The notes under the pieces are model-generated. The model saw only the letters and a program-made list of their open reading frames with translations, was not told the DNA's origin and searched no databases. A stretch of DNA of 64,000 nt from Meghimatium bilineatum (Eukaryota; Mollusca; Gastropoda; Stylommatophora; Philomycidae): contig CM067298.1 of assembly GCA_034231615.1 (NCBI GenBank), positions 26,058,528 through 26,122,527 of the forward strand, read 5' to 3'. Shown here one piece after another: positions 4,766 to 58,200 of the stretch (positions within the stretch are counted from its first letter, which is position 1; every line of letters starts with the position of its first letter). The translations under genes were made by a program, and so were the position numbers.

Positions 4766-5220
4766 CATTTCTGGAAGTGATTTATTCTTCTGTTGTAGCA
4801 TATCCACGTAAAAACAGAATCCCTTGTTCTGCTATATCGAGATAGTATTAGCTGTCTTTTGGGTTGTTGACTTTTTAAATAGTTTGATAAGGGTCCTATT
4901 TTCATGGTAGATGATTTGTTGGTCTGTGCAATGTAATTTCTTGGTCGGTGTAACCCATAACAACATGTGTTGCTTTATCTTTTGCTAGGTAATCTGCCTT
5001 TCCATTTCATGTAGGCCTATATAATAACCAAAGATTAAGAGGATATCTTACAAAAAAAAAACTAACAAAAAAAAACCAAACAATTACAGCAGTAACACAA
5101 ATGGGAAGTGATATGACTTAAGGTTAAGATAAAACTTAGTGTTTGCACTTATTTATTAGCATTTTAGTATAGCCTATGCGAAAGTAACATTTTATTATTT
5201 AAACCTTAAGTACGAGTATT

Positions 5221-5655
5221 AAAATGCTACATCTATTCCATATTAATGTATGGCTCAGAAACATGGAGACTAAATAAACAATTAGAAGACAAAATTGATG
5301 CCTTTGAGATGTGGGTATATAGAAGAATAGGGAGAACGTCATGGAAAGAGAAGAAAACAAATAAAGAGGTGCTAAAGACACTTAATATGAAGAAAGAACT
5401 ACTAAGAGAAATAAAGATCAGGCAAATAAAATACTTTGGACACATTAAAAGACATGACACCCTATTGAAGACCTTACTTGAGGGTAAAGTCAAAGGGAAG
5501 CGAGCAAGAGGTAGGCAGAAATACAAGTGGGAGAGTAACATTACACGATGGACAGGTTACAGTCTAGCAGAGTGCACCACCAAGACAAGAGACAGGAGAT
5601 GTTGGAGATACGTTGCAGCCAACCTTCGTTGCGGAGACGGCACTTGATGATGATG
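5221..5655 (+). pseudogene. LINE C-terminal region and 3' tail, open frame
   Basis: A 133-codon open frame: MYGSETWRLNKQLEDKIDAF, VYRRIGRTSWKEKKTN, KYFGHIKRHDTLLKTLLEGK, CWRYVAANLRCGDGT, then TGATGATGATGA. 5'-truncated insertion, the least decayed copy of its family here. The tail style is that of RTE-like LINEs. Confidence 0.85.
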
Positions 5656-6238: not shown

Positions 6239-6385
6239 ATGGCGGGACCGTCGCTAGTAGAACTCCCACCTTCTACTGTTAGATTGATTGGAAGTGGCCA
6301 AGTTATCACCAGTGTTTATAGTGTTGTAAAAGAGCTTGTCGAGAACTCGTTTGATGCTGGATGCACATCACTTGATATTAAACTG
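6239..6385 (+). CDS. PMS1: PMS1 exon 1 (start codon, ATPase motif I)
   Basis: Encodes residues 1-49. It contains [11 protein letters not shown], the GHKL motif I whose Glu activates water and whose Asn binds Mg. The ATG context is favourable (A at -3, G at +4). The exon ends in phase 0 before GTATTT. Confidence 0.95.
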
Positions 6386-9300
6386 GTATTTTAACATAAA
6401 TAAACTATCTATCAATTCTATATGCTGTTTTTCCTAGTTTGCCTTGCTCTATAAATATAAATAACCAAATGGTCGGAGGGTGTCCGACAAAGTGGAGGGT
6501 GCCGCAGTAACCGAATGAACAAATAGTAAAGCAAAATTAATTAAACAGGTTACTAAAAACACTTACCTTGCCTATGAATAAAAATATATAAAAAAGTATA
6601 TATAAAAAACATACAATAAAACTAAACAGGACAATTCTCCACGTATCGGCTCAAATGGAACTTTTTTCAAGAGACAAACAACACTCAGTAAACAAAATAT
6701 TAAACAAAATAGATCACTTAGATTTCATAAAGCCACGTCTCCATGACGCAGGAATAAAAACGCATCCAGTAAAGAGAAAATGCGTGCATTCATTATAAAC
6801 AAACTGGAAAGTGGGAAACTAGAGGCAATATAGAAGTGGTTGGGGTGTTTATAATGAATGCAAGAATAATATAAGAAAAAGACCCCTTTTGTCACTTTAT
6901 TAGACAGGTAGGTTTTAAGAACATAGTCACAACAGGCAAGACTGAAGGGAACAGAGACAGATGGGGACAACGTGAGAAAATATTAGTTTGACAACCTAGC
7001 TAGGCATGGAAACAACAACGATCCTGATAACAATACTGTGGACAGAGAGCCATGGTCGCCTACGCCAACCAGAATGGCATATGATAATTATTGATGAGTA
7101 ATGATGAGGTGGTGTGGTGGTGAGGTGAGTGGGTTTGGGGAAGGAAGGATACAAGAAGAATCATCATTTGAAAACGCATGGAATGAATGTGAAACCAAAT
7201 ATAGACATAAACATATATATATATATATACAACTACACCTAAACATACATATAAATGTATACACACACCAAGAGTTAATAAATTATACAATTACTTTGGG
7301 CCACACATTTGTATGTATACATATGCAGTTGTTATAGCATTATCTTTATGTGAACGAACGTTTATATTTTCATTAATATATGTGTATGTTTTTATGTGTG
7401 CGAATGTTCATGTTATTGTTTATATTTATGTGAGAAAGTGTTTATGTGGATGCATGTTCAAGAAATAAATATATAACAAAATGGATACAGATGTGTGAAG
7501 GATATCCACACAAAATGCACAGGCATGTAAATGTATCCACACATAGGAAAGGGCTCATACCAGAATAGGCATACATATTGACACAGAATGGAGATACGTG
7601 CATTAACATAAACAAGCGCTCACATAAATACATATATATATATATACATAAATATGAAAATGCATCCACATAAACACTTTCTTACATAAATAAAAACAAT
7701 AACATGAACATTCGCACACATAGAAACATATACATATATTGATATAAATATAAATGTTCGTTCACATAAAAATAATGCTATAACAACTGCATATGTATAC
7801 ATACAAATGTGTGGCCCAAAGTAATTGTGTAATTTATTAACTTGTGGTGTGTTATATGTATGTTTAGGTGTGGTTGTATATATATGTTTATGTCTATATT
7901 TGATTTCACATTCATTCCAAGCGTTTTCAAATGATGATTCTTCTTGTATCCTTCCTTCCTTCCCCAAACCCACTCACCACACAACCTCATCATTACTCAT
8001 CAATAATTATCATATGCCATTCTGGTTGGCGTATGCGACCATGGCTCTCTGTCCACAGTATTGTTATCAGGATCGTTATTGTTTCCATGCCTAGCTAGGT
8101 TATCAAACTAATATTTTCTCACGTTGTCCCCATCTGTCTCTGTTCCCTTCAGTCTTACCTGTTGTGACTATGTTCTTAAAACCTACCTGTCTGATAAAGT
8201 GACAAAAGGGGTCTTTTTCTTATATTATTATTGCATTCATTATAAACACCCCAACCACTTCTATATTGCCTCTAGTTTCCCACTTTCCAGTTTGTTTATA
8301 ATGAATGCACATATTTTCTCTTTTACTGGATGCGTTTTTATTCCTGCGTTGTGGAGACGTGGCTTTATGAAATCTAAGTGATCTATTTTGTTTATTATTT
8401 TGTTTACTGTTGTTTGTCTCTTGAAAAAGGTTCCATTTGAGCCGATACATGGAGAATTGTCCTGTTTAGTTTTATTGTATGTTTTTTTATATATACTTTT
8501 TAATATATTTTTTATTCATAGGCAAGGTAAGTGTTTTTAGTAACCTGTTTAATTAATTTTGCTTTACTATTTGCCTTGTTCTAGTCTTGCCCTTGCGGCG
8601 AAAGGGCTGGATGAGTTCTCTGAAGATGGCCTTCTTGTGTGCTGTTTGTAAGCTTATTCCTGTGACTTCTTTGATTTCTGTGATCCATATTTAATTTATT
8701 TTACATGGTCTGCCTCTGGATTTATATCCGTGATGACTATGAGTCATGGCCATTTGTGGCATGCTACCAGTTGGTAGTCTGGAACTGAGTGGAAGTGTGT
8801 GAAAACCACTTGATCTGTTGTCTTTTGATATGTTCCAATAACTGGTATTATTTTGGTTATCTGTCTAATCATTAGACTAATGTTATAGTTTCTAATTATA
8901 TCTCTGAATGACCCTCCAAGTATTCTTTGTAGACATGTCATTTCTGCTGTCACTATTTTTCTTTTATCTTGTGCTGTGGATCTTTTATCTTGTACAATGG
9001 ATGTGGTCCAGGTTTGGCACTGGTAGCACAGTGATGGAATAATAGTTGTCTTGTATAATGCAACTTTAGTGTCTATGTTTACATTATTGTTCTTGAAAAT
9101 ACATGTCATCTGTCCTAGGATCTGGTATGTTTTGTTGCATCTATTTTGTATCTCTTTACTGTTTTTCCCTTCACCTGATATAATGCTTCCTAAGTAAGTG
9201 AACTCATTTACCTGTTTAACCTTAGGCACACTGTGTTTACAATTACACAATTTCTCTGTGCCGCGGAATTAGTTTTTGGAAATGTTATGCAATCGTCGGT

Positions 9301-12300
9301 CTCTGTTTTGAAATCGCGATAACTTTTTTGTTGTTACAGATATTTAAATAATATTGCACATATAAATAATTAAATTCTGCATATATTAGTGTAAGTTTTG
9401 TTTGTGTGTGTGTGATACGAGACGTGTGAGATAGTGATAAAGACAGATTTAGACCTATCTAGATCTAGGCGTACCATATTTTTGATCGATCGACAGCCGT
9501 GAAATTTGTTGACTGTTATATATTTTACATAATGGAAGTCTCATGGTATATTTTAAATAATGAATTTGAAGAACTTATCTCTCAAGTTTTTCACTTTTCC
9601 ATTTGAATAAATGATTTTTTGGACACTTTTGCACCTGTTCTTACTTTACTTTGGCTATTAGCATAAATGCCCTTGCATATATTGATTAAATGTTCTGGTA
9701 CTCCGTACATTGATAGTGTTTTCCATAGTTGTTGTCTGTGTCTGCTCTGTCGAAAGCCTTTTTGTTATAAAAAGTAGAGGGGATAGAACACACGATATAG
9801 AACAAATAAACACTGGAAAGTGGAATTTTAAATTGATGTAGATTAAATTAAATCATCTGAAGACAAGTAGTGAATAGTCAGAGTAGTAGTAGTAATAGTC
9901 TAGTAGTAGATAGGACCCATAATTCCTAAGTTAGAGTAAGACCTTCTTTAACTCTAGTCTAATGAAGCTGTCGTGTACTTCAATTCAAGTATTTAAGAAC
10001 TGACGTCATTGCAGACCTATAGTTCTCAGTCTCAGCAGCCTACATTTGATCCCAAATTCCTTCAGTCTCTAATTACAATGTTACACTGCAGTGTAATTAA
10101 AACTGTTTGATCAGTCCAGTGAATTCTCATTATCCCTTGGGCAATCCAGTATTTCTTTCAAGATCTCACCTCTGTCCATATTCAAAGTGCTCGCCACAAT
10201 GGGATGTGTTATGTGTATCTTCAGTGATTAGCAAAACTTTATTACCATGTTTCTGGATTTACCTGCTGATTTCAGTTGTTCATTTTTGTGTTTCTAGATG
10301 TTTTCTACCTATGGCTAATGTCTTTTCATTAAAATGTCAGTTTTGTTGTTTTTAGTGATTTATAAAACTTAATTTCTCAGTGTCTTTACTGTTAGCCCAC
10401 TGTATGATGAATGGCAGACTGGAATCTTATCACTGTAATCGTTTTCTTGTCCTGTTGTAATATATTTAAAAGTATCTAAAAAGTTGAGGTTTTATGTGTT
10501 TATTGTCACGGTGGGTGGGTTTAAGTTATGGTTTTGGCTACCCTCCAGAGAAAAACAATTAATTTGTATTTTTAATTATGTTTTATTTCATTTTTAACTA
10601 TCAAATATATGTTTTTTTCTTACAACATTTTTCAATTTATACTTTAAATGTCTTTACTTTAAAACAAGAAAAATAATTATTAAACACATTTTAAAAATGT
10701 GAAAACAAAAAGTATCTTGAAGTGTGTCACAGTTATCAAGATATTTTTTGACAACAACTGTTCTGATACTTTCCATGATCCACTACAATTGTGGACTGCA
10801 AATTATGCAAAATCATGGATATTTGTTTAAGCATACCGGGTATATTTTGTTTATACATGTAACATTTCATTTAATTCAACAAGGAAGACTATGGTCTACA
10901 AAAGATAGAAGTATGTGACAATGGATGTGGTATTAAAATGATGGATGTCCCATATGTGGCCAAAAGACACTACACTTCTAAGTTGGTTACTACTGATGAT
11001 TTACAGTCTTTGGAAACATATGGTTTTAGGGGTGAAGCACTTGGTATGTATAGTTGTTTTTCCAGATTAGTATCTTTTCTTATAAACCTGAGGCAAATAT
11101 TACTGTTTAAAAATATTATATCTATTCTATTGATTGAATAATATTAAAATACACATTTATATGAACCAGTTAGTTAGTTAATCATCTGATCATCATCATT
11201 GCACTCCGGACAAATTCATAGGTGCTCTGATCTCTCCCTGAATGTATCCGCCATTACACCTCTGCTGACAGTTCTGGTTCTATGTTGATTGACCATCATT
11301 CTTCTGTTCCCCTCTGGCGACCCCACTTTTCAAACTCTGTTCCTTAACTCTAGCCATTGAATAAGAATCAACATCAATGTCAAGTTCACTTTCACATTTT
11401 GTCTCCTGTAGGGAATTAAACACATCTGCCCAGTCCATTGCTGCTCCCAGGGTTTAACAACAGCTCCTAACGCCAGCAAATCAGCTCTCTCATTGTCCCG
11501 AACGCCAACATGCCCAGGCACGAAAATTACAGCTAAGAGAAGAACAGGCTGGTTTGCTACATAATAGAACCTGTACAGACCATAGTAATTCTATGTATAA
11601 TAGAACATAGTTTAGAACAGAATCCACCTTTGTATATAGGTTTTGTGGACTACGAAAAGACATTTGAGTTTCCACAGATAGATTCACTGTGGAAGCTATT
11701 AAAGTTGTTGTCGCCAAGTTTGCAAATCTGATAGAAAAAAAAAAATACACAAGAATGAAATGTAGTTCTCCATTCAGGATTTATTGCATACCATATTTAT
11801 ATAAGAATCAGGTATGACATGAATGTCTCTTGTCACCATTTGTTTTTTGTTAGCTATAGATTATTTTATGAAATCAACAATAGCGAATAACAGATTTGAA
11901 ATCCAATGGACTGTGATGATATTACTAGAGTACCTGGATTTCGCAGACAACTTTACTTTACTTCTCCACAACTACACTCAGATGAAAGAAAAGATTAACA
12001 TTTTAAATGATATTTCACATTAAATATGCCAGAATATACAGTATGACACCATATGCCTTTATTTTCTGAGATTATTTATCTGGTGTCTTTTTTTTCTGAG
12101 GTTGGACTGACCTAGGAGCTGTAGTGGAAAAAAAGACAGTAATGGAATGCAAACCGTAAACCACTTGGTTATAAAACCAGTGCAATGGCTGCTCCCATTT
12201 ATGCCAGATGTTACATATAAAATATCTTCTTCTTCTTCAGCGTTCATTCTCAAACTCCCACTGGATATCTCTTGTATCAGGACCATGGTCCTATTAGATT

Positions 12301-15300
12301 TCCAGAAGAATGTAGTCCAGAGAATGGAAATGCGTTGTGTCACCGTTTTATTTGCGCCAATGGCCCGACACATCCGTCTTCGGCAAATATAAAATATCTG
12401 ACCTAGGACATAGTTTGAGACTACTCAGTTCTTAGATTTGGTAGTTCATGAGAGTATCCTGTAGCAGAAACTGGGGACTAGGATAAGGAAAAATATAAGG
12501 TTATTAGTGAGTCATAAGTAGTGTGATTGCATGATTTTCATCTTCTGTTGTTATTTTTGCCTAATTTCTACGACAATTTCAATTTTTTTCCAACTTCACA
12601 GCTTCCCTTAGTGCTGTCTCATACACTACTATTATCACAAAAACAGCGGATGATGATGTTAGTTACATTTATGACATAGATTTTGAAGGAAATATTAATG
12701 GAAAAAAGCCATCCCATCTTGGGACAGGTTTGTAAAATTATTTTTGAATATAGATCATATAATATTGGTAACCATTCATGTTGAATTTAATAAATTTTAT
12801 CATAAAGTTCTAAGATTCGAAATTTTGCAGTTTAATTAAAAATATTGTTGTAATACAATATTTAATTTCTTGCTTTTATATATTTACATTTTAATTGAAT
12901 ATTACCCGCCAAAGATGGATGTGTCAGTCCATTGATGGCAAAAAAATGGCAACACAACACATTTCTCTTCTCTGTACTGCATCCTGCTGGATTTCTTGCT
13001 ACAAGAGAGATCCAGCGGGAGTTTGAGAATGAATGCTGAAGAAGAAGATTGAATATTATATAATTTTATTTGTTTTGCCTGTTTGCATTACTTGAAGTAT
13101 TTGAATTTATTCTACATTATTTAATATTAATTACTTGTGTATATGTCGTTTTGTGTGCTCAATGTGGTATTTTATTTTATTATAAGGGACTGTAGTGACA
13201 GCTCGCAACCTCTTTTTCAATCTGCCTGTAAGGAAACAGTTTTACAGAAGTTCTCAGCGCAGAAAAGATGATCTAAAAAGAATTGAGGATCTTCTGATTG
13301 TGTACAGCATTATCAAACCTCAGATGAGAGTCAGCCTGAAGCATGGTCGAGATACTTTATGGCAAAAAATTCAGGCAAATGACATAAAAGGAGCACTTAA
13401 GTCTGTCCTAAGCAGAGAAGTTTTTAATCAGCTTCTTTTTATAGAGAATCACATGGAAAACTCACAGGTAGATTATTGTTGCTGTTTATAAGATATACTG
13501 AATTAATGTAAACACGTTCAATGTTGTTAAAGGTTAGATTAATGTATGATTTTGTGTAGGTTTTATTGAGAAACAACAGAAAATAATGCCAAGAAAACAT
13601 ATACATAATTGTTACTTGGAATATATAGAACAATAGATGATCTTTGCTTTTGTGTCTTTCCAGTATGAAATAAAATATACAGATAAAGGTTAGATGTGTT
13701 TAATATTACTTTATCAGTAACATTTGACCAAGCTGTAAAAAGTGAAGTTTGGAAAATATTTTTTCTCAAATGATTAATGTTTATGTTTAGTAGCATAATT
13801 TAAAAAAAAAAAGGGCTTAAATTGCTAAAAGGATTGATTTCATTGTACTTTAAGTTTCCCATATGTACTCTATAGCTCTTAACAGAAGAACAAGCTGCTT
13901 GCTGAGAGTATCGTTCAGATAATGTAACTAAGTAGTTCAAGCAATAGTTCTCATAGATCTGAGAGAATAATCATGGAGCTGCATGAACACAAGGCATATG
14001 GCTCTACGACTTAGTCACTGAATTCTACTAATATTGTGTCACAATAAATTTTTCATTTAACTCATTCAAGATAATGATTTTAAAATTGAAAATTTGATTT
14101 GTTCTGCAGGGAACAGTGTCTGCTTATTTGCCAAAACCTGGTTCAGACTTGAAGTTAATGTCTAGGTCAACAGGAGATAGGACATTTATTGTTGTCAATG
14201 ACCGGCCTGTTCACATTAAAGAAATAGTGAGAGTGAGTTACATGTATGTGGTTTCATCTTTTAGCAGTCCATGGGTTATCACTTGTTGGAAGATTGCATG
14301 AAAATATTGCAACAGTGATTGTTTCGACAAAGATTTATACGTAAACACTTAATATTATAAATGTTGCATGCAACTAATCAATTACAATAACTATCAACAA
14401 CAGACAACTAGAAAATGTCAAAAACTGAATGTCTTGGATCAATCATTAACAACACAAGAGACTGTTCAGCAGAGATAATCTTCTGCAGCATTTAGTCGTG
14501 TGAGCATGCTAAATTATCAAACTTGTCACTAGGACAAGTCCACTACCTTTTCCATGTCAAAATAGCTTTTGCCTCAGCTCTGTATCCTCTTGTCAGATTC
14601 ACCATCTTTGCTCTTTGCATGTTGGTCAGTCCTGAATAAATAGCAAGAGACAAATACTAATTTTAACAAAAACAGTGTGTATGTAAAATCTATAAATCTA
14701 TGGAAAAGGACATAGAGGAAATCAAAGTTGTAACTAATAAGAAACTATTTTACTGTTGGAACATATGATTGTGAAACTTAGGCAATGACATCCATATTGT
14801 AAAATAAAATATCAGCATTTGAAATGAAATTCTATAGAAAGATCATAATAATATGAGCAGAGAGACTATCCAACAGACCAAAGTCATGCAAAAAGAAAAG
14901 GTTAGCTCCTCAAAACCATCATAAAATCCAAGCTAACATAATTTGGAAATATAAATAAGAAACAATGGGTTAGAAAGATTAGTCATGGAGAGAAAAGTTC
15001 AGAGAAAGAGGCCACCCGACATTAATGGACACATGATATCGGAGATCTTTTGAATGTGATACTCGATGAAGCAGGACAGCTTGCACAGAATGAGAGGCGT
15101 AACTCATTTCGGACAGATCACCGATATATTGGCTATTTAACCTTTAGCAAGCCGGATTAAAATATACAAAAACTCTTCCTGCCCTGGATTCTTTTTTGAG
15201 AATTTTCATCTTTTCTGGTTGGTGTTACGAAAACGCAATAACTTTTTTGCTATTCTAGATATAAAATTATTTTTTTTCGCATGCAAATGCAGAATTGAAT

Positions 15301-18300
15301 ACCGCAAATTTATGTATATTTTTTTTAGTGTAACCTACCCGGGGTTTGCGCAAGAAGTAAAGACCTTTTTTTCGCAAAAAACCAACAAAAACAACAAGAC
15401 ATGGGTGTTCGGAAAACTCAATAACATTTTTGTTATTAGAGCTTTTAAAATAATTTCAACAGATTTAAATGCAGAATTGAATACTGCAAATGGGTGTGCA
15501 ATTGGTGTTTTTTTTATGTATGATACCCGAGGTTTGCGCAAGAGGTGAAGACAATTTTTATTATAAATTACATAAAAACAAACAACACAAATGACTTACC
15601 CACTGGCCGTGCAGCTCTGGAGTACAACTACAGGCTGTGCTGTTCTCCTACTTGCTGTGCAGCTCAGACGTACAATCAATTTTGAAATTTACCAATGTAT
15701 GGTATCTATGGAAGCAGGGGTATGGGCACAGAGTGACCTGACATGCTGTACACACGTACTGAGTCTGGTGGCACTTCTTTGACCGATCTGAACAGACTAC
15801 ACAGTCAGGAAGCGCAGGCTTGCCACTGGACAACCGTTTAGGATTTATAGCAATGTGGTGTGTTGGTGCTATTGTCATCCTATCCGGTGGTGGCTTGTTC
15901 TTCTTCCGGCACTGGAAGAAGAAGGCCTAGTGTAGCAACTCTCAAGAAGCCCATGAACTATCTGCAAGCAACATTTTTCTGCCTTGACTCGGCCAGGATG
16001 TTTGGCCTGCCACAGGACAATTGCATTTACAAAGCAAGCTTCCAACAAGTAAAATAAAATTTTCTTCCACCACTTGCAGGACCTGTGGCCTAACATATAA
16101 TATGTTAGCTGCTTGTCAACACGATCAACGCCTCCCATATGAAGGGTATAGGCCTGTATTGCACATGGTTTTACCACATCCCTCACATTGCCACCATGAT
16201 GTTTAGAACGGACCTTTCTATTGAAGGTCTGCGCATCGTGTACAGATATCATCAAATTTACTTGCCTCTTGTCATACCATGACATGTAAACAATGTTGTC
16301 AGCACTATCATTACGAAGTGGATCACCAGCCTTTAGTTTTAGACCCTTCAACGCATGGGGGACCCCTTTGCAATTCAATTGTAGTGTGCCACAGGCGCCT
16401 ATCTGGTTCTCAGCAAGCTCCTTGAAAAGGGCTGGAGAGGAAAAGAAGTTGTCCATGTAGACAATATGGCCCTTACCGTGCATTGTGTCCAACAAATTAC
16501 TCCCAACACAGTGAGCCAATCCCTTCTTTTTGTCATAGATGTCCTTCTTCCCAAGATACAGCTTCCAGTTCCAGAGATAACTAGTCTTCGAGTCAGCCAG
16601 TGCCCAAGACTTTATACCCCACTTTGAGGGTTTCTTGGGCATCTACTGCATAAGACTAGTCCTACCCTTGAAAGCAATCATGCTTTCATCGATACTGATT
16701 TCTTTGGAGAGGCCATAATATTGTTGGAACAGAGGAATAAGTTTGTCAACAAACCCTTGTATCTTGAACGCATTGCTGTGACCGGGTTGCCCTCGTGCAA
16801 CAGCTGTTGTGTTGTCTACAAGGTGCAGGAATGAAAGAATAGCTAAAAATCTATTCCTACTCATGACATTCCTGAACCCAGGCATCTCGATGAGACCATC
16901 ATTAAATCAATACAATTCATAGGAGGAATGTTTGGTCAGTCCCATCAAGAGCACCAAAGCAACAAAAGTTGTCATCTCATCAGCTGTGACTTCCTTCCAC
17001 AGCTTCACACGAGATGCATTGCCGGCGTCCTGTCCCATCGAATCACTAACCTGCTTAGCGTAACGATTAGTTTCAGTTACCAACATGTTCACAATATCAT
17101 CTGTAATAAACAGACAAAACACATCTACCTCACTAATGTTATCAGCTACGCCTATAGGTCCAAAAACTTCATCGAAGTTGCTAAGCCAATCATGGCTATA
17201 CCCCAAAGGAACACTAGAATTTTCAACAATTTCATCTTCCAAGATGTCATCGGCCACGCTGCCAACTGAATCAGTATCACTATTATTATCTCTATCTAAC
17301 AACACATCATCTATTGGAGCGATATCTGCATCTGTTAGCAGCACACTTTCCTCCTGATCCGAATCGGGATCCATTACAAACTCAAAGTAAATTGCATCCA
17401 TTGTAGGCCTAGGTTGCTCTCGGAAAATACGATGTAAAAACATCTTGTCGCTACAGAAAATTCTGTCAGATAGCCAGGGCGGACGTGAAGTGGTGCTGGC
17501 TTCGTTTGCGCATGCTCCGAACTAAATACACGCTGTGATCAGGCTGTGGTATGCCTATTTAGCACGATATATCATTGAGCAGACTGCATCCGACAGCCGC
17601 CATTGAAATTTTTGTCGATGACACTTAACCAAAGCGCGGTGAAGGTTAAAGAAACTTTACGGGACCAAATAACCGATATATCAGTTTTGTTTTGGTTTCC
17701 ATAAGTCTTAATTTGATAAGTTTATACTTCGTGGTTTGTTAATATGGATTTTTATGTTTGCCCAATTCTTTACTGCTATATGCGAGAATACTTTCACTTC
17801 TATTTTCACTAAAACAAATGTCTTTTCACATTATTAAACTGATTGTTTTTACCTTAAAATTTGTTTTATTTAAAAAAAATAATGAAAAGTCCAATTATTT
17901 CTGGACATTGTGTGGAGCAAGCTATTGTTCTAATTTATAGCATGTTCAGACAGAAGAGTGAAGTAGCAATTATAATTATAGTTGCAATCATCTCAATAAA
18001 AAAAATGATCAAAGAAGCTTAGATTAGGTTTACATACTTTTAAATGCTGGTCGCTTCTACAGTTGTCAATACATTTGAAACATCAAAGATCAGTGATGAC
18101 ATCAATCAATCAATAAACCTGTAACCTTTCAGTGTCGTAGGGGTACCACATTGGATGCCTCAGCACACAGAGTCCTCCAGCGAATTCTATCCTCAGCGAT
18201 GTGGATGAGTGTGGAAATATCTTGCCCTGTCCATTCCCTGATGTTATCTGTCCATGCCTTTATTTTCCCTCCTCTACTTCTTCCACCCTCGACAGTTCCC

Positions 18301-21300
18301 TGCAGTATTTGTTTTTGACAAGGAATTGTGCCTGCATACATGTCCGAACCATGCTAGTTTTCGGCATTTCACTATTGAAAGCAATGGCTCCTGAACACCT
18401 GCACACATCTCATACTTTATTTCTTACGTACACAATGGTCTTATGTTCCCTATAGGAAATTCATAGAATTCGTCTGTAGAGTAGAGTTCTGCTTTGCATT
18501 TACCATTGCTGCATATACTGGATCTGAGGTATTTCAAGGTATTCACCTCCTCAAGCTTATGTCTATTCATCACGATATTAGTCTGGTTTTCTGTGTCTCT
18601 GCTGTTTACCAAGATTTTGCTCTTATCTGTATTGATTTCCATTCCGTACTTGCTGGTAACTTTTTCCAACTTAACTGTTAATTCTTGCAATGATGGTTCT
18701 GACCCAGATATAAGATCAAACTATGATGACATAACTGTGTTTAGAAGAGAATACTTAGTTCATTTCAAACTAGTGAAAGTGATAAATCTTCATCAGCAGG
18801 TTGTAGAAATTATGCAAAGTCTGTAAATAATGACATTTTAATAATGTATATTTTTATAATGTTTTTTTTTCTTCAGATGCCATGAATAAAAATATGAATA
18901 AGGAAAACATTTTTGGTTATAATTCATCAAATAAACACGAATGCTGTTGCATCTGTGGGTCTCACCAATGGCTCACTAGACAAACCATCCATACAACAGA
19001 AAATCTTAGTAGATGACATGCCATTATATTGAGGCTCTCTTATGGAACATGTGTAGCATGTCATCTATACAATTATAGACCTGCTCTGAGTAGCTCTTTC
19101 AATAGACATTGCATTAAGACGAAGGCTGAAGTCTCCTGAGTAAGAAAGATAGCTCAGAAAAACCATCCCACTGCATATGGGAAATAAGAGCTAATCACTC
19201 ACAACTCCTTGAATTCTCAATCAATCAATCATCAAATAAATTGTGTATTGACTACAACTAATGCCCTATCATAAAATACCAGAAAACATGATAGGAAAAT
19301 TTCACGTCATTAACAAATTAGGTCAGTTGTAGTATTTTAATTAACAAAATTATAAGCTACTAATAATTTTCGATTTTATAAATTGTAATTATACTTTTCA
19401 AAACAATTTTTCAACACTTTACTGATATGCCGATTTTCTGTAAGAATTTTCCTTTCTGATGATATACAATATGCACACCATTTATCAATATTATGGTAAA
19501 ACATGATCAAATTAAACAAACGCGATGATATTTTTCTGTTAATGAAAATTAATTTGGTCCAAACCTAAAAAAAAATCAAGTCCTCATAGAGTGGCAATGA
19601 GGACAACGTTCTGTAAAGTACTTGTTACTTAGAAGTTGTCCATAAAGTGGTGGTGAGGACAATGTTCTGTAACATACATATCACATAGAAATCACCCATA
19701 AAGTGGCAGTGAGGACAACGTTCAATAAAGTACATGTCACATTGAAGTTGCCTATATGTTCAATCAATCAATCAATCAAGTGCCTTGCCGAATGGCGTAG
19801 GCGATCATGTATCTCCATGACTCTCTGTCTCTTGTGTTGTTAATAAGCTCGGGTACCACAGTACTAGTCCATCTAGCAACTTTTCTCTTTGTCGTCCCCT
19901 ATCTCTTCTCCCCATGATCTTTCCAGTGGTTATTAAGTGTTCATGCTGTGTTCTTCTCAGCACATGCCCTAGAAACCGTGACTGTCTGCCCCTAATGTTT
20001 GATATGATTGATCTTTTTACACCAGCATCAATGACAACCCCTGCATTAGTTATCTTAGCTGTCCATGGTATTTTCATCATTCTACTCAGAAACCACATCT
20101 TTGTAGTCTCTAATTTGCTTTGAATTTTTTTGTTTACAGTCCATGCTTCACATCCATAAAAAAGAATTAGTTTGATATAATATAAATAACCAAATGGTCA
20201 GAGGGTGTCCGACAAAGTGGATGGTGCCGCAGTAACCTAATGAACAAATAGTAACGCAAAATGAGGTAAACAGGTTACTAAAACACTTACCTAGCCTATT
20301 AATAAAAATATATTTAAAAAAAACATACAATAAAACTAAACAGGACAATTCTCCACGTATCGGCTCAAATTGAACCTTTTTCAAGAGACAAACAACAGAT
20401 AACGACAAAATAAAAAACAAAATAGATGTCTATATTTCATCAAGCCCCGTCTCCATAATGCGTTTTCTTCGAATCCCTGCGCTATTATGGAGACGGGGCT
20501 TGATGAAATATAGACATCTATTTTGTTTTTTATTTTGTCGTTATCTGTTGTTTGTCTCTTGAAAAAGGTTCAATTTGAGCCGATACGTGGAGAATTATCC
20601 TGTTTAGTTTTATTGTATGTTTTTTTAAATATATTTTTATTAATAGGCTAGGTAAGTGTTTTAGTAACCTGTTTACCTCATTTTGCGTTACTATTAGTTT
20701 GATATAACATCTCTGTACTCGAATTCAGGTCTGTATTGATAGTCTTCCATTGCACAAAATGGTTTTCATTTTTTGGAATGCTGATTTGGCTTGTGTTGTT
20801 CGGCTCTTTATCTCACTTGAGCATCTACCTTCTGATGTTAACAGGGTGCAAAGATATTTCACTTTTTCATCTTGTGTTAATTTTGTGTCATTAATTATTA
20901 TGTTGCATCTTGGTGGTGTATGTCTCTTCAAGGCCTTTGTTTTCACTTTCTTTCACTACTGTATCTAAGAGGGCTTGTAGTTCCTGTTTGCTTCCTGTGA
21001 TCAATACTGTATCGTCAACATATCTACAGTTATTTATATTGCATCCTCCCACTTATATTCCTGGCATATCTTCTATATTTCGCATTATGTATTCTGTATA
21101 CAGGGAAAAAAGATCTGGTGACATTACACAAACCTACCTGACACCCATTTCTATCTTTTGAAATCTACCTATAGTGTTGTTAACTCTCATTGCAGCCGTT
21201 TGTTTTCAATACATATTTCTTACTATTCTTAGATCTTTCCCATCAACGTTAAGATTTTTTAGCAGTTTTATAATCTCTGAATGCTTCACCTTGTCAAGTG

Positions 21301-24300
21301 CTTTGCTGTAATCTAGGAAGCACAAATAAAGGTCCTGTTGTACTTCTATGCCCTCTCCATTAATGTTCTTACTATATATAGGGCATTTCTTGTGCATTTT
21401 CCTTCTACGAATCCGCATTGTTCTTATGCTATCTCTGGTTTTATTTTTCCTCTTACACGCCTCATAATTATGTGCAGTAGAATCTTGGTCATCTGACTCA
21501 TAAGTCTGATTAATCTGTGGTCTTCGCAATCGACTGAACCAGGTTTCTTTGGTAGGGCTATGAAAATTGATTGTAACTAATCAAATAGAATATTGCCACT
21601 GTTGTAGATGTCATTTAACATTTTGGTGATAAGTTCAATGCCATAATCTCCCAGGGCTTCTAATTCTTCTTTAGTAATCTTATCCGGACTTGATGATTTG
21701 TTGTTTTTAAAGTGTTGAATAGCTTCCTTATGTTGCTGAGACCCAAAAGGGGAGTAAAGAACAGCAATATTGTTATCTGCCATGCATGTTATACATGGCG
21801 ACTAATAAGGTTTGGTGATGAAGTTGGTTGTCACCATTCCAAGGAAGAGCAAAGTGACCCAGAAACCATACTGAAATTGGATGTGTCAGCCTGAAAGACG
21901 TGATATTGCAGTCAAGATGTAAACCATGGCATAAATCATTCAGTTATCTGAACTGAATCTTGTTAATCTGCAGGAGTTTGAGAATGAAGGCAGAAGAAAT
22001 TAATAATGCATATTTTAACTTTTTATTTTAAGGAAAAAATATGTTTAAAAAGGCTCAATTTGATAAATGAAAACTATCTTAGAAATATTGAACAAGAGAG
22101 AAAGCTTACTACGTGTGAAATGAGATGTCTAAGAAAAGCAGCAAACAGAACACAAGAAGAGATCATGTGAGAAATAAGGAGATTACAAGAACTGTTGGAA
22201 CAACATCTGTGAAAAATAATTTATCAGAAAAAAACAGTACCGGTATATTGAAAAATAGAGATTGAAGTGGTTCGGCCACCCAATGAGAATGAACCCTTAT
22301 TGGCCAACGGCAAGAGCATACAACATAAAAAAAATGGAAACAGCAAGATACAGAGAAAGATCAAGAAGTAGATGGATTGAAGGAGTTACCAACATTCTGA
22401 AATGGCACAGTATTACTGCGTACCAAATAACCAAGCAAACAATAGCCCGAAAACCGATCATCATTAAATCCTGCGACGTCTTACAGCATAAGCAGAGAAA
22501 AGATAATAGATAGATCTTAGAAATATTAAACTATTCTGTAAATGTAATATAGAAATTTAAGCAAGATGTATTTTGAGATCCTTTCATAGTTAGCCTTTGT
22601 ACATAAAAACTTTCCTAATGTTGAAGATATTTTCTTTTATACTTTTCTTAAACAGGTTTTAAAACAGTACTACAGCCATTGTCATGCCAGTGATAGCACA
22701 CACTTTCCAATATGCTATGTGTATATTAAACTGCCAGCTTCAGATGTAGATGTCAATGTAGACCCTAACAAAACAACTGTTTTTCTGAAACATTTGGTAA
22801 CAGCTTTATAACTAGTGCATTTAAGAGAGTACAGATCTAGGACAATTGTTAAAGTTGTGTAGAAAATAATGATTCCATATTAATAATATACTGATGTGTT
22901 TATATAACCAAAATTTTAGAGAATGTCCGACAAATTCGGGAGTGCTGCAGTAACAAAACAAATAAGTGATAACGATTATATTAAGCTAATAATGTTACTG
23001 TAATACTAACTATCAAAATTTAAAAAAACATTGTAGAAACTAAATAACAATAAACACAGTAACAGTCATTGTTGTTGTGTTTATTGTTATTTAGTTGTTA
23101 CATTAAAAAAAATGTTGATAGTTTTACAGTAACATTATCAACTTAATATAATGGTTATCGCTGATGTGTTTAAAACTGTTTACTTTTTTACTGTTATTAT
23201 TTTAACACTATTTTTTTTTACTTTTACTATCTTAATACTCTTTAACTCTAATGTAATATCCTTATTAACATTTGGTTGCAAAAATTTGAAAATAAAAGCG
23301 CTGGAGAAGAAAGCATTAGAAAATAAATGTCTTAGAAAAATGTACTTTCATCTTCTTATAAAACTTGTCACAAATTCTTGGTTTGTTGTTTCTTTCCTGA
23401 GTGAATCATTAACCCATGTGTTTCCAGGACATAAAATTGGAACAAATAATAGCAACACTGTTTACCTTCCAAGCTTGTCATAAGAAGTGACTTAGTAGGT
23501 GTGGGGTGGAGTTGGCTGTCCCATCCCCCATTGGGTTAAACTGACCCAGAAAGCATGCTAAGACGAATGTATAAGGTGCAGATATTGCAATAAAGTTGTA
23601 AACTATGATACAACGAATTTTGGTCTTCTGACTATATCCTGCTAATCTATAGGAGTTTGAAAATGAACACAGAAGAAGAAGAACAGTGAAGCACTTGTTT
23701 TTAAAATGTCTTTTAGATCTATTAGATATTGAAATTACCTTTTAATAACTAAATAAGATTGTTAATTTTATATATTTAAAAAAAAAAGAGTTAATTAAAA
23801 TTGGAAGGTTATTTCAATAAATTTAATTGCAGAATGAAGTGTGCATGAGTTTAGAGGAGCTCCTGTTAAAGATATATGGCCCTTTAGACTATGTGCCAAA
23901 CTGGCATTACAGGGATGCAATTACAAATACACAGGAACAGAAAAATAGTGAGAGTTCCAGTAGTGTGAGTTCAAAGGTGAGATTACTCTGGATTTTGTCA
24001 TCATATTCTTGTGTGTTTGTGATGATATTTATGAAGGAAACAGTCTGTTCAATTGATCCTTGGTTCTTCTTTAATGATTGTTCTCAAACAAATGCAGATT
24101 AGTAGAATGTAGTTCATTTTTTTTTATAGCAGGAGATATACTGCAGCTAGATGTCATCTGAGGATCTCTATGGCATAGTGGTTAAGCTAATTTGACATGT
24201 TTATGTGTTCAATACTTGATGTTTTGCTTATATTATTCACAGATCTAGTAGAATTATCACTTGAAACTACTGGGTTATGAGTAGTAATCTCGGAAAACAG

Positions 24301-27300
24301 CTTGCTGTTCTGTTTGAGAAAGGAAGAGTACATAATGAGGAGTCAGAGTAAAATTAAATTAATCCTATATGAGTTTTGATTTCTTTTTTTTTTTGGTAAT
24401 GAATTCCTTCCTACTTCATTATTTCTCTCATACTGCTGTGATGTCATGGAAAATTATTGATTACAAATTTAAATGACATTACATCTACCAATATAAGTAT
24501 ACATAACTAAACTGTCAGAGGATATCCAACAAGGTGGAGAATGCTGCAGTAACAAAAATAAGAAGTTATAACTATTATAATGTGTTATTGTTTCTGGTAA
24601 CTAATATAACTAATAAATAATAAAACTAATGTCAATAATAAATAACAAAAAAAACAACAAAGAAACAGGGACTTATGTATGTTACGGTCCAATTGGGACC
24701 TTTTTGAACAACGAAATAAACACATGATATTATTTATGCATTTTTTTCTGGCTTGATCTAGGCTATTATGATTTCTTGGCATAGATTCCATCTCCCTGCA
24801 TTGAAAATAATAAAAGACGCAATTATGTTTAATTATGGGCAACTTAGTGCTCACCTGGACTTTACACACTAATGATAGAACAAATTGATAATAGCATGAG
24901 GTAAGAGAAGGAATCATGAGTGTCAAACCTGACCAAGTGAATGTCTCATGTCAATTTAAAAATTGATGAAAACAAAACAGTTGATATATATATTTTCACA
25001 TATATGTCAAAATTACACATACATACAAACAAACATACCGGTACATATTCAAATATATGTACGTATGTGCGGGCATATGTATGTATTCAATCATTCGTAT
25101 TCTGTGGGGGTACTGTGTTCTATTGGAGGGGGACCCCACCCTATTTTAAGCTGTATGTAGTTCAACCCGTTAGCCAAAGCTATTTCATAAGGTATGGTGC
25201 TGCCTTACACAAGCAGACATGAGGAGCAATATGTGAGATGGAATGGAGTGAAGGAGGAACCAAATAGGACCAAGGCATTCCTCAATAAATATAAAAAATT
25301 AATATAAATATTATACATGACTGGTGCAATAAAACAAATTTTTTGTTAGCCTGCACATAACAAGTCTAATTCTATGGTCATAAGTTATGATAATTCACAG
25401 AAAAAAGGATTTTTTTTGTGTGAAACAAAATGCTATAAATACCATGGACTAGAAATATCACAAACAATGAGATACTGAAAGATTAATGTCAGGAAAGATT
25501 GGTTATACAACACATTTTTCTGCAAAGAAACATGATAATGTATAGAAAAAAATACTCTAGAAAATCTTGAGAAGGGTATCTTTTTCAACAATGGACACAA
25601 ATCACAAGATCATCTAAAAATGACTCTTGTACAGGTAATAAGACAGATTTTTAGGGAAGTTGTGATAGCTACACTCATTCATATATATTATATCAGTACT
25701 GTCTTTTACTGTATTATGTTCTTGATGAAGGCTTTTTCATCGAAATGTTAATTTGTGTGTAGTTTTCTGTTTCCAGTTATACATAGCAAAACTTCATTAT
25801 GCTTTGTTTCCACTTTTGCCTATCGGATTACAGTATTCCTGCAGTTGTAATCTATTATCTATGAAGATGATGATGAGTGTTATAGAAGAAATTGAGTTTC
25901 CATAGTATTTTAATATTAATAATCATGAACTTGACCTATCTAAGGTGATGTTTACTATGATAAAAGGTACTCTGCCTCTTATATGTGCACACATGTTCTG
26001 GAATACTATCTTCTATAGAAAATGGCTCAATGGATGGAGACTGTTTCAGTACAGAGTTGATGCACAGATGCTGCCTTTTACACAGATTTCAAGACTCATG
26101 TGATAAGGAATACAAACTCTTACAAAGTGCATGATAAAAGGATGTGATTAGTCAAAAGACACATATATTTTGACTGTGCTTACAACTAGTAGCACAACGT
26201 GCTTGTGCCCAAGATACAAAGGGAAACATAGATAGTTTTACTCAAGTAAACTAAGAGTCAGGAGTATTTTTAACAAAATTGTCATGATAGCTATCAGCAT
26301 GCATTCACATCAACATCTGCTGGAGGTGATTGAGCACTATGGGTTTGTTTGGGGGTGTTTTGACAAGTTAATAATCAATAACCTTCTGCGTTCATTATCA
26401 AACTTCTGCTCATTAAAATGATGTAATCTGAAGATCAGAATGGGATGTGGCATAGTTTACATATTGTCTGTGACACCTGCATATTTCAGCCTAACATTTG
26501 ATTTCAGCATGGCTTTTTGGTCATTAATAGGATGGGACAGCCAACCCCCATCCCTAGGGCTTCCTGTAACCTTTTACAATATCCATGGCAGGATACAGTG
26601 TTTCTCATAGCTGTCAGCTTATTTTTCCATAAATCTGTATTTTTAACAATTTATTTCCATATTTCAATAAAAATGTCAGTATTTAGCAAAAAAATACAGC
26701 AAAATACTCATGCAAAATTATTGTTTTGTTTTGGCCCATAAATATTTTCAATACGTGTAAAACGCCGGCATCAGTAGTAATTACTGAAGATGTAACACCA
26801 AATTACCCTTTAAAAAATAAAACCACAAAATGTTCTTTTGTTGTGGGGTTTTTTAATAGCCCAAAATCCGTATCAGTGCGGAAAATCTGTACTAGTTGAC
26901 ACCTATGGTGTTGCTATTCTTTGCTCTCCTTTCATGTGCTAGAAACACATGTGACCAATAATCAATAACTAGAGTAAACACAGAATTGACCTGAGTACAT
27001 AGGAAGTTTGAAGATATCATTTGACCAGTTAACCAAATAATATATTGCTATTTTTGTTTTATTGAATGTTGTATTTTAATGTGTTACTCAAGTTTTTGAA
27101 TGGCTTAGTTTATTCTTATCAATGCTTTTGGTTTCTGAAATTTTCATTCAGGCTTTACTGGATTATGGACTGAGAAAGTCTTCTGAAAATGTAGTCAGCA
27201 TTGATGACATGAGCAGCCATAAGATATCTGACACATGCAAGAACAGCTCTGCAAGTAATGAAAAAAAGGAAAGTGCTGTCAACAAGTGCAATTCTGCACC

Positions 27301-49901: not shown

Positions 49902-50393
49902 TAGTCCGTTCAGAATCGTTTGCCGAGATGTTAAATTATTTTTATCAAAAACGTATTGTTCATTTGGATTGATCATTTGAAGTTAGGTTTAGAATAATAA
50001 TGTCGCTATAGAAATATTTTTTTATCAAAGAAATGTGATCCAGTATCAAAGATACCTTATTTAACCTATATTAAAAAAAAGTTAATCTAAATTATAAACA
50101 ACCGCTGGATTATGTAGATGCTTACATCTCACATCTGATTATTAAATATAAAGGCATGACCCTCACGGTAGAATGTGCACCGTTCTAAAAGTAGTTGTTT
50201 CCACTGTACATTTGTATAAAGCAATGTTACATATGGAAATTCCCGTTTAGCACCAAATATTATTTTTCCTGAACTTAGAATTATGTGAAATCAAAAACGG
50301 ATATTGACTCGATTTCAAGTCACAAGTCAGAGGCACGTCTCAATATTTACAGAATGTAGGCGGCACTAAGCATATTACCTTCTGCAAGTCTAT

Positions 50394-51672
50394 GTGAGAA
50401 TGAATCTGAAAGCGAAATATTTTACTGAGCATAACATTGCTATAAAGATTTATCAATACTTCTGCAGAGAGCGTAAAAAGGGACATCTTTATTGTTCTTT
50501 ATCAAATCCTGAGAAGAGAACAATGCATATTTTAGGTTTGTGTAAACGTTCATTTGATCGAATAGTGGAAGCAAGCGGATATTTATTGCCAACAAATTCA
50601 CGAAAGCAAGGAAGGAAAGAAAAGATAGACAGTTTCGATAAGGACCTAGTAAAAAGAGAAATATGTAGAATGTTTGATAAAAACGAAGAAGTGACACTTA
50701 GAAAGTTGAAGATTTGGCTGAAAACTTATAACGACATTGAAATATCAAAAACTTTATTATGGAAAACTGTAAGAAATGCAGGCTTCACCTTTAGAAAGTA
50801 TGCTGGTGGAAAAAACATTATTTGTGAAAAGCCACATCTGGTAGCTCTTAGAAGCAAGTATTTACGTGAAGGGAATACGCGAGAATGGTTATGATATTGT
50901 GTATTTAGATGAAACTTGGATCAACGCTCATCATACAAATGAAAAGGAATGGCAGTTAGCAGATGGAAGTATTAAAAGATCAGTACCAAGTAGTAAAGGG
51001 CAACGTTTGATAGTTGCACATGCAGGTAGCAGACATAATGGGTTGTTGCAGAATGCTCATCTAATTTTCATTTCAAAATCCATTGACAATAGAGACTACC
51101 ACTCCGAAATGAATGGGCACATATTCGAAGACTGGATCGAAAAAAGTATTCTTCCAATATTAGATAGACCTTCTTGTCTGATAATGGACAATGCTTCATA
51201 CCATAACGTAGTGAACGTAGAAGATAGAATCCCAACATCATCAAGTACAAAAGATGCAATCAAAACGTGGCTCATAAAAGAACACATACCATTTACCGAC
51301 AGGTACTTGAAACCCGAATTGCTTAACCTTGTAAAACAGACACAACGAACAAAGATATTTAAAATAGACAAGTTAATTGAAGAACATGGTCATAGATGTT
51401 TGAGACTACCTCCATATCATGCACACTTAAATCCTATAGAGCTAATTTGGGCAAAAGTTAAAGGACACGTAGCATCTACAAATACAACTTTCAAATTATG
51501 TGATATTGAGACTCTTACAAATCAGGCTCTATCAAATATACATAAAGACTACTGGGTGAAATGTGAGGATCATGTGTTACGCCAAGAAGAGGAATATTGG
51601 AAAAAGGAAGGTTTGTTGTTTGTTCAGCCGAAAACAGTAATCGACCTATTTGACTCGTCTGATTATGAATGA
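50394..51672 (+). pseudogene. Tc1/mariner-type transposase, DD83E, one frameshift
   Basis: The first frame (50394-50894) holds the helix-turn-helix DNA-binding half. The second (from about 50866 to TGA at 51670-51672) holds the catalytic half. The break lies at about 50865-50880, where a few extra bases shift the frame before IRENGYDIVYLDETW. Catalytic residues are visible: YLDETW (D), LIMDNASYH (D) and LNPIELIW (E). 83 residues separate the second D from E. The RLPPYHAHLNPIELIW block is the standard signature of this superfamily. Apart from the frameshift both halves are open. Confidence 0.9.
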
Positions 51673-55284: not shown

Positions 55285-58200
55285 CTGTATATTGAATAGC
55301 ATAAATTCAAAGTGTTGTAAATATCCATCAACAAAACACTTTTGTGGCTTCTGAAATAAATTTTTCCAACATGAACAATGACAAATTTAACTGATTCATC
55401 TGTGAAACCATTTTCTTGAACTGAAATAAAGCCAATGCTCTATAAATAACAGCTGCATCCATTGACCAAAAAGCCAGGTGTGAGTTATTTTACAGTATAT
55501 AATAATTGAAGCATATTCTGTCATTTAAACATTGCTATCCAACTATTGTTGAATTTTTGGGCACCACTAATACATCTGATTTTATTACCAGTACACTATG
55601 AGCAATCAGCTTTTGAACCAAGAGCTAATTCAACTGAGATGGATTTGTGGAGCAAGCTCCCTTTCCTCTCTACCAATGAATTAAAATTACAGTATATACA
55701 AATATTATAAAAACACTCATCTGTAAAAACTTTAAAGCACAATTAGCACATGAGAATGTGGGGAATTATATAGGGTAGAGCCACTTATTTGAAACACTAT
55801 ATTCCTTATATTGGGTGAATCACTTAGTAGAACCACTATTAATATAAACTCATGTAAACATACAACAATGGAGACAATTTGTGTTGGGATAAGTGAGAGA
55901 GAAGAAAGAGAAACTACATGAATTAAACCAGACTGTAAACTCACATAATATATATACATACCAGTAGATGAGTTATTTGTGCAGCAGCCCTGCTATTAAA
56001 ATATTTCATGTTACAGCATCATATTCAAATGTCTGGAATCATATGATGTTCATATGGACAGAGAAGGATATAATGGTTATGAACCTTTATTATTGTACTC
56101 TGGGCAGACCTATAGATACTCGGTTCCCTGCAGCACATTTTTGAAGAGTAGGCACACTGTTTTGTCCCTGTGATGTGGCTCACTGGTTAAACACACTCCT
56201 GACTGTCCCCAGTTTCATATTCAATATAGTGGAATCCCATTACAATGAATTCATTTTTAATGAATTTAATGCCACTTTTAAAAATCCCTATTATTTTTAC
56301 CTCTTTGTCTTAATAAAAAAAACAACATATAATGCATGTATCTAAAAACATATCCCATATAATGCACTATTAAAAAAAATTGTCTCAGTTAAAAAGATGC
56401 GATTTTGCAAACTGTGCACTCAAGTCACTGAGAATGGACCAATCGAGACGAGGACTATTACAACAACAACAAACATCCTGTACAAGTATTGAAGTATCCT
56501 CAGGACTATAACATCTGTATTCATACTATAAGGGCCAATAGGCCTTGTAAACATAAATTATATAGAGACAAGACAATGTTGCTTAAAATAATAACATATA
56601 CAAGTAAATTCAAGTAGGAATGAAAAATTCTTGACATTAAATTAAATTATGCTGCCATATTTGTAATTTATCCTCATACTTCCTATCTGAATTTAGATTT
56701 GTTGAAGAATAAGATTGACAGTGCTTGAAAGTGAGATGATGTAAGAGAGAAAATGATAAATCACAAGTCAGGGAAGATCAAAGCACTGAAAATCATGGAG
56801 TAGGCAGGATGTGTGTTTTTTTTTAGGCGGATGGCATTGGTGTTATTCTTAAGAAATCATAAGAAATACAATGAAAACAGTACTGTGCAAAGAATACATG
56901 GATAAAATGACCTGGCCACCTGAACAGAATGGAACCAGATCGCATTCTATCGATAGTCTTCAATAGAAGATCATCTGAAAAAAGAGAAACAGTGGAAGAC
57001 CCAGACGAAGAAAGATAGATGACACAGAGAAATACTGGAACACAAGGCGGAACTATCTCAGCCACATCACAGCAAAATTAAAAAAAAAATTTGGTTCACG
57101 CCTAGCCACATCCACGGATAAGACAAGACAAAATGGTGTTATTCTAAAGAGACCCAATTTGACATTTCCAGCAATTTTCATTGGCTGTTGGCACAATGAC
57201 CAATGGAAATCGCAGGAAAAGTAAAATTGCGTTATTTTAGAAAGATGTATCCTGATGACTATTGTTGATAGACAAGAATCAGTGCATCTTAAGAGAATTC
57301 TTCTCAGTGAAGAGGGTAGGGGAGGATCCAGGGACTCGCTTTAACTGATGACCATTGACATTATAAAGCACATTGGGAATCATCTTTTTAAAGTGATGAA
57401 TTTGACTTTTCCCTTGATTTTCATTGGTCACTTTGTGTATAATTTGTCAGCAGCCCAATGAAAATCACCCAAAAAAGTCAAATGCTGTGCTTCAGAAAGA
57501 TGAATCAGTAGGTCTATTTGTGGATGGTGACTTAAGTATCTCCTGAAAACCAAATATCTATAGTATAACCGCATGTCAACACCTCCCTCTCCCAACACTA
57601 AAAAGAAGCCATGAGCAAAGTCAGATAACAAAACCATACATACCTCTCCATTCCCATCACTAATGTTGAAAAGGTGAGAATTTAACTAAAAACTACAGTG
57701 AAGGTCAAAGGTGCCTTAACAATACCTTTCCCCTTCCCACAAGGAACTGGTACACCATTCTCTAGTACTTGAAACCCAATGATTACATCATGTGAAACAT
57801 TGTAGAAGGGTACATGTGAATTGCAAGGGCATAACTTATGGGAATATCCATAATTGTATATAACAAAACTGGGTTGATTCTTCTTGATTCTTGATTAGAA
57901 ACTGGCCTCACAGCACGCGGGACATTCCCATAAGTGCTCCGCCCTCCGCTCCAGCAGCCATCCCAGTGTATGTAGACTCATAGTTCCGGTCAGGTGTTGA
58001 TTGTGTGATCTTCGGGACTTTCCAAAAAATTTACTTTTCCTCCCCTCACCTCTGAATACTCCCATTTCTAACATTCTCTGTATGTGTACGTTCTCAACCT
58101 CATTGACATCATCTGCATCTCGAAATGAATTTATTACTGCCTTTATTAAATCTGCTTTATCTCTTCTCAGCAATGTGCCATCTATCGCCGCATTGCCTGC

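Follow-up and report, generated by a model that had tools for sequence, protein, structure and literature searches.

One-sided leaders and copied inverted arms in a family of likely retroposons at a MutL-type locus of Meghimatium bilineatum

How does a mobile element come to have two large inverted arms and a leader at one end only? The question is raised by a 64-kb stretch of the genome of the gastropod Meghimatium bilineatum (GenBank assembly GCA_034231615.1, contig CM067298.1, positions 26,058,528 to 26,122,527, forward strand), here called the window and numbered from its first base, which holds five copies of such an element in or near a MutL-type mismatch-repair gene. The copies are named by leader start: c5 (5020), c1 (6452), c2 (20181), c3 (22903) and c4 (24500). 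The new and firmest result of the analysis is that the two arms of an element share a history, one having been copied from the other within that element's own lineage. We read the family, with a probability of about 0.6, as short non-autonomous retroposons that move by target-primed reverse transcription starting at the leader and in which one arm is copied from the other. The five leaders are:

5020 to 5098, plus strand: leader of c5, degenerate and interrupted by an A-rich insertion, 5' of the first exon of the gene (profile match)
6452 to 6511, plus strand: leader of c1, the 3' end of the putative minus-strand RNA (motif and profile)
20181 to 20236, plus strand: leader of c2 (motif and profile)
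22903 to 22954, plus strand: leader of c3 (motif and profile)
24500 to 24553, plus strand: leader of c4 (motif and profile)

A first-pass annotation, made by a model from the letters of the window, had listed four of these. A motif search over the 64 kb allowing up to three mismatches finds the same four (with 0, 0, 2 and 3 mismatches) against 0.02 expected by chance, which bears out that list; c5 is an addition to it. Leader profiles score c1 to c4 at E-values of 5e-17 to 8e-21 and the degenerate fifth leader (5021-5113) at 5e-10 once it is included in the profile. A four-leader profile built without c5 places it (5024-5053) at the top of the remainder, at E = 0.035 and just beyond the inclusion threshold, and by eye the tail, hairpin and GCAGTAAC blocks are all present in c5 with their order kept. 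Nothing else in the window scores above threshold. Profile scores, to which the copies themselves contribute, are 69 bits for c2, 68 for c1, 59 for c3 and 34 for c5. G+C content is higher in the leader than in the next 100 bases in c1 (50 against 21%), c2 (46 against 24%), c3 (38 against 18%) and c4 (40 against 15%), and not so in c5 (24 against 27%). All five copies have the same orientation, as had been claimed for four, a regularity that is not significant at n = 5. Exact leader and arm patterns have no match in viral_contigs or genome_contigs, collections of microbes and viruses in which little was to be expected, and leader 14-mers have none in the published literature searched.

Next to the leader lie the arms (identities, here and below, count aligned bases only, with gap columns excluded; LINE, long interspersed nuclear element):

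5116 to 5211, unstranded: decayed palindrome of c5, 28/45 aligned arm bases identical, weak
6520 to 7460, plus strand: left arm of c1, with a deleted LINE fragment at about 6794-7115
7655 to 8573, minus strand: right arm of c1, 876/916 identical to the left arm (28 gap columns), carrying the LINE fragment too, deleted internally at the same places
20245 to 20459, plus strand: left arm of c2
20484 to 20697, minus strand: right arm of c2, 212/214 identical to the left arm (1 gap column)
22956 to 23064, plus strand: left arm of c3
23070 to 23171, minus strand: right arm of c3, 82/102 identical to the left arm (7 gap columns), its outer end entering the duplication
24554 to 24719, plus strand: single arm of c4, sharing about 57-60% identity with those of c1 and c2, with no significant second arm

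Arm length thus differs between copies, from about 100 to 940 bp. No second leader stands at the arm-only end of c1, c2 or c3, whether judged from sequence or from profile matches, exactly as the first-pass annotation had it. Shuffled sequences reach a palindrome as good as that of c3 in 0/100 trials, of c5 in 6/100 (weak) and of c4 in 45/100 (chance level); the c5 palindrome is no more than probable. A 16/19 inverted match in c4 (24568-24586 with 24719-24737) looks plausible by eye as the trace of a second arm, and was rejected because simple shuffles equal it at that last rate; c4 is therefore counted as single-armed. The c5 palindrome ends (at about 5210) roughly where a 5'-truncated LINE begins (5210-5647, plus strand, with an open frame of 145 amino acids and a TGATGATGATGA-type tail), and this LINE may have inserted into c5, hiding its target duplication. 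Within each c1 arm (6786-6861 and its mirror, 8233-8308), some 44 bases of the deleted LINE fragment stand between the two halves of an inverted 16-base pair, making a small palindrome inside the large one.

If the palindrome were plainly inherited, the left arm of c1 should be nearer to the left arm of c2 than to the right arm of c1. Informative sites were sorted by whether they group the arms by element, by arm side or crosswise, with gap columns set aside. In the region common to c1 and c2 the counts are 19:0:0 (of the other sites, 183 do not vary, 12 vary in a single arm and 2 are of other kinds). They are 38:1:0 for c1 and c3 (35:0:0 in a seven-sequence alignment) and 30:0:1 for c2 and c3, the alignments with c3 being less certain, as these elements are far diverged. 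The LINE fragment, moreover, has identical internal deletions in both c1 arms relative to the LINE copy at 1034-1435. Because sites group by element and the c1 arms share these deletions, one arm was copied from the other in each element's separate history, a fact missing from the first-pass annotation and added here. Arm identity is 99.1% in c2, 95.6% in c1, 80.4% in c3 and 62.2% in c5, the same order as the falling leader scores. That copies with lower-scoring leaders have less similar arms speaks against constant conversion in place, and if low leader scores reflect age, copying stops after insertion and is most likely part of the transposition step.

Evidence that these are insertions comes from the target duplications, which border c1, c2 and c3 immediately beyond the leader and the arm end:

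6438 to 6451: left target duplication of c1, 14 bp, one mismatch to the right copy
8570 to 8583: right target duplication of c1, with a 4-bp overlap with the arm end
20166 to 20180: left target duplication of c2, 15 bp, exact
20693 to 20707: right target duplication of c2, within a minus-strand LINE reading frame, with a 3-bp overlap with the arm end
22891 to 22902: left target duplication of c3, 12 bp, exact
23161 to 23172: right target duplication of c3, with a 2-bp overlap with the arm end

The exact duplications of c2 and c3 had been reported at these lengths, while that of c1 is 14 bp with one mismatch and not 13. Among 2000 random position pairs given equal freedom, a duplication as good is found in 2 for c1, 0 for c2 and 1 for c3; a cruder control, counting exact matches anywhere nearby in shuffled flanks, gives 15/500 for c1, 0/500 for c2, 1/500 for c3 and 420/500 for c4. 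For c2 there is also an empty site. Once the element and one copy of the duplication are removed, its flanks align with an uninterrupted LINE paralogue at about 34.2 kb and show no gap where they meet, and the LINE protein reads continuously across the joint (tblastn); the paralogue makes both the c2 insertion and its 15-bp duplication well supported. In c1, c2 and c3 alike the right arms stop close to the leader, at points only a few bases apart. Their overlaps with the duplication (4, 3 and 2 bp, by eye) have a Fisher p of about 0.013 under a simple chance model, and fit what is expected of microhomology joining at the 5' end of a retroposon, though three cases are few. A preference for AT-rich targets finds no support: G+C counts in the 16 bases before the leaders of c1 to c5 (7, 2, 4, 4 and 6) are not clearly below the window mean of about 5.6.

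On the minus strand the leader could form a hairpin of 6 bp (in c1, GTCGGA, a five-base loop and TCCGAC), followed by a tail such as TTTGGTTATTTATA that adjoins the duplication. The loop is AC-rich in c1 and c2. Standard pairing holds in 27/30 cells on the minus strand and 24/30 on the plus strand, and control stems slid along the leader pair in 30-60% of cells against the 90% observed; some of the changes in the hairpin could be CpG decay. Whole-leader folds of c2, c3 and c4 do not show the hairpin. Rfam has no match at the gathering threshold anywhere in the window. Relaxed searches return only matches below the gathering score, mostly microRNA-like or small-RNA-like and some with low E-values (MIR8562 on c2 has E = 2e-24, at 124 bits against 211 required), since a long hairpin gives such matches; one of these searches returns none at all. 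No hammerhead appears in relaxed Rfam searches of c1, c2, c3 with c4, and c5, or by a loose core pattern, written from the motif as generally known, in the five elements. Patterns for the A- or B-box of RNA polymerase III, written likewise from the consensus, match neither strand of the five elements, ARAGORN (bacterial code) finds no tRNA, and the Rfam search at gathering threshold, the one search that extends to 5S- or 7SL-like heads, shows none.

The elements appear to be non-coding. A Pfam scan of all 41 frames in the window of at least 100 amino acids (E up to 0.01) yields DDE, HTH_Tnp, RNase_H and one weak Integrin_beta match; frames inside the elements have no Pfam match. RVT_1 was seen nowhere except in two fragments of the host LINE of c2. 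GIY-YIG is absent from all 41 frames (shorter and broken frames were only partly scanned), and a telomerase-like reverse transcriptase with GIY-YIG is found neither in the elements nor among those frames.

We infer from these observations an RNA intermediate, its strand, self-priming and an enzyme acting from elsewhere. The RNA would be the minus strand, ending in the leader with its 6-bp hairpin and AU-rich tail. An enzyme supplied in trans would nick the target, and target-primed reverse transcription would begin at the AU-rich tail. The second arm would then be copied from the first as the growing complementary DNA (cDNA) folds back and primes itself; alternatively, the enzyme might leave a palindromic RNA template and continue on the strand it has just made. 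Copying would halt near the leader, perhaps still covered by RNA and enzyme, leaving the leader one-sided, and the free end would join the target through a few matching bases to give a duplication of 12-15 bp. The first-pass suggestion of retroposition with the leader as RNA 3' end fits the long, variable duplications, the arm-end overlaps, the possible hairpin and the c2 empty site; the first-pass interpretation as a whole is supported in part. The duplications and the shared arm history are likewise consistent with self-priming, without being proof of it.

Several points weigh against this reading. All inferences about the family rest on five copies in one 64-kb window, all within 20 kb. A convincing target duplication was not found in c4 or c5, and truncation of c4 at insertion, which the first-pass annotation had cited in support of retroposition, cannot be demonstrated in a copy with no duplication. 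The c3 hairpin has only 4/6 pairs, and covariation in the hairpin is not significant (101/500 shuffles reach 90% pairing). No enzyme or coding relative of the elements was found in the window. Copying that stops at a covered leader would give arm ends as nearly constant as those seen, but so would a palindromic RNA whose 5' end is fixed; the arm ends therefore also fit an inherited palindrome, and do not single out self-priming. The greater age of c3 and c5 is judged from their diverged leaders and is not a date. Finally, the c3 duplication is exact (12/12), which counts to some degree against this copy being very old, yet about 20% of sites differ between the two c3 arms; if the arms had been identical at insertion and all sites had drifted alike, an unchanged 12-mer would have a chance of about 7%. 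The c3 arms may already have been unlike at insertion; in that case a palindrome that is handed down, with copying now and then, would be more likely than one made afresh at each jump.

This last point bears on a bolder form of the retroposon reading, in which the family is a separate retroposon class whose hereditary part is the leader and one arm, the second arm being resynthesised on the nascent cDNA at each jump and stopping at the enzyme-covered leader. Every new copy would start out with identical arms, regardless of what the parent's second arm was like, and captured foreign DNA would be carried in duplicate, as in c1. The exact c3 duplication beside unlike arms lowers the odds of such rebuilding, and we consider it unlikely.

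Two further explanations name the engine, and as both are compatible with the retroposon reading their odds overlap with its own. One holds that the family depends on a LINE: the leader would be the 3' end of a stringent, non-Penelope LINE, and the fold-back palindrome would be inherited, its arms evened out during reverse transcription. Duplications of 12-15 bp are LINE-like in length, and LINE fragments are abundant in the window. Stringent LINEs recognise a 3' stem-loop, according to passages of PMC5135761, so that a LINE partner is equally possible. Against such a partner, none of four LINE 3' ends in the window (about 1406, 5645, 19780 and 34690) enters the leader, three of them entering TGA/TTGA repeats instead; the leader profile picks up no LINE end above threshold there, only the five copies; and neither polymerase III boxes (by pattern) nor a tRNA was found. 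Dependence on a LINE is a live possibility that falls short of even odds.

The other engine is that of Penelope. The elements would be true Penelope-like derivatives, with head-to-head inverted pseudo-long terminal repeats (pLTRs) and a one-sided tail, moved by a Penelope reverse transcriptase/GIY-YIG encoded elsewhere. Passages of PMC3846280 describe Adineta vaga Penelope copies with inverted pLTRs, one of which may bear a 31-bp tail at its 3' end, and with duplications of 8, 9 and 10 bp (some insertions having none), microhomology at the 5' junction, and unrelated DNA caught between pLTRs; palindromes at the inverted pLTR junction are ascribed there to self-priming, for which the authors call for further experiments. 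Inverted repeats, tail, palindromes, microhomology and captured DNA thus all have published counterparts, and a curation guide counts inverted pLTRs and short 3' extensions among Penelope peculiarities (passages of PMC8969392). In an Anolis element, according to PMC11167929, reverse transcription begins internally on the RNA, in an AC-rich stem loop and at targets rich in AT, and this accounts for the tail. The AC-rich hairpin loop of c1 and c2 recalls that one, but the inserts here end about 15-20 bases past the hairpin and not inside it, and the targets are not clearly AT-rich, which lowers the odds of this origin. A minimal type I hammerhead is reported as conserved in Penelope elements (passages of PMC7761336), whereas the five elements show none. 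They have inverted arms and a one-sided leader, with no direct repeat copy (hence no direct pLTR) seen and no coding part, and their duplications are of 12-15 bp rather than the 8, 9 or 10 bp in PMC3846280. The likeness to Penelope-like elements drawn in the first-pass annotation is apt as an analogy to the copies of PMC3846280; as a claim of membership it meets the missing hammerhead and GIY-YIG and the longer duplications, and we entertain it only tentatively.

That the family is a foldback DNA transposon, asymmetric at its ends and with arms homogenised by gene conversion, is improbable. The long inverted repeats of foldback elements can evolve together, as the arms do here, but such transposons have the same sequence at both termini and a fixed-length duplication. 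Duplication length here ranges over 12-15 bp, the leader is one-sided in 3/3 copies having both ends, and arms are unlike where leaders have diverged, so that conversion in place has not been continuous. Helitrons and Helentrons, which make no target duplication and insert between A-T or T-T, do not agree with the 12-15 bp duplications in 3/5 copies.

The surrounding locus has a G+C content of 35% over the window, and broken LINEs are common in it. The MutL-type gene, which we take from its sequence to be PMS1, lies on the plus strand; its introns host c1 to c4, and c5 lies upstream of the first recognised exon (about 6240-6385). That exon matches PMS2/MutL structures (best E = 4e-7), and a later one matches the DNA_mis_repair domain (E = 8e-9). 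Other mobile elements are present. A pair of minus-strand open frames (15875-16642 and 16907-17521) has matches to DDE_Tnp_1_7 (E = 3e-41 and 7e-11, respectively) and is read as a piggyBac-type transposase, apparently split between frames. Overlapping long open frames at 50370-51672, plus strand, match DDE_3 (E = 7e-16) and, at E = 0.003 and under the cut-off, HTH_Tnp_Tc3_2; we take these for a Tc1/mariner-like transposon. A frame at 57895-58368, minus strand, has an RNase_H match (E = 3e-6) and is probably the end of a retrotransposon polyprotein. Several copies of a short dispersed repeat around GGAGTTTGAGAATGAANGCTGAAGAAGAAG occur in both orientations (12215-12282, 12994-13061, 23652-23683), resembling the end of a short interspersed nuclear element (SINE).

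How Penelope-like and related elements form their inverted structures is not yet settled, self-priming having been proposed from palindromes (passages of PMC3846280), and a compact family whose arm histories can be counted site by site offers a direct test. Within a gene, such elements would also readily supply long double-stranded RNA. The nearest precedent, Penelope inverted pLTRs, is already published; a literature search for foldback or palindromic retrotransposons, retroposons or SINEs and for inverted pLTRs returned only PMC3846280 and a general curation guide in which Penelope structure is treated, most subscription journals lying outside its coverage.

Among known systems, the SINEs of stringent LINEs resemble the family in being short and non-coding, with one defined 3' end, a possible hairpin, an AT-rich tail and duplications of LINE length; unlike them, it has a palindromic body, no tRNA-like head and no partner LINE in the window. 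The foldback elements FB, Galileo and Tetris share its large inverted arms, varying in length and alike within an element, and differ in that the leader here is one-sided and the duplications vary from 12 to 15 bp. From Penelope-like elements (the Pen families of A. vaga, Penelope of D. virilis, Poseidon of Anolis) it differs in having no coding part, direct pLTR or hammerhead, in its arms of about 100-940 bp and in its longer duplications. With them it shares, as far as passages of PMC3846280 and PMC11167929 go, an inverted pair with a one-sided extension and flanking duplications, palindromic junctions ascribed to self-priming, and the capture of unrelated DNA. By analogy, and short of proven membership, the family would appear to behave like a Penelope inverted-pLTR insertion, and its route of mobility may be a variation on one that is known, though as yet not well understood.

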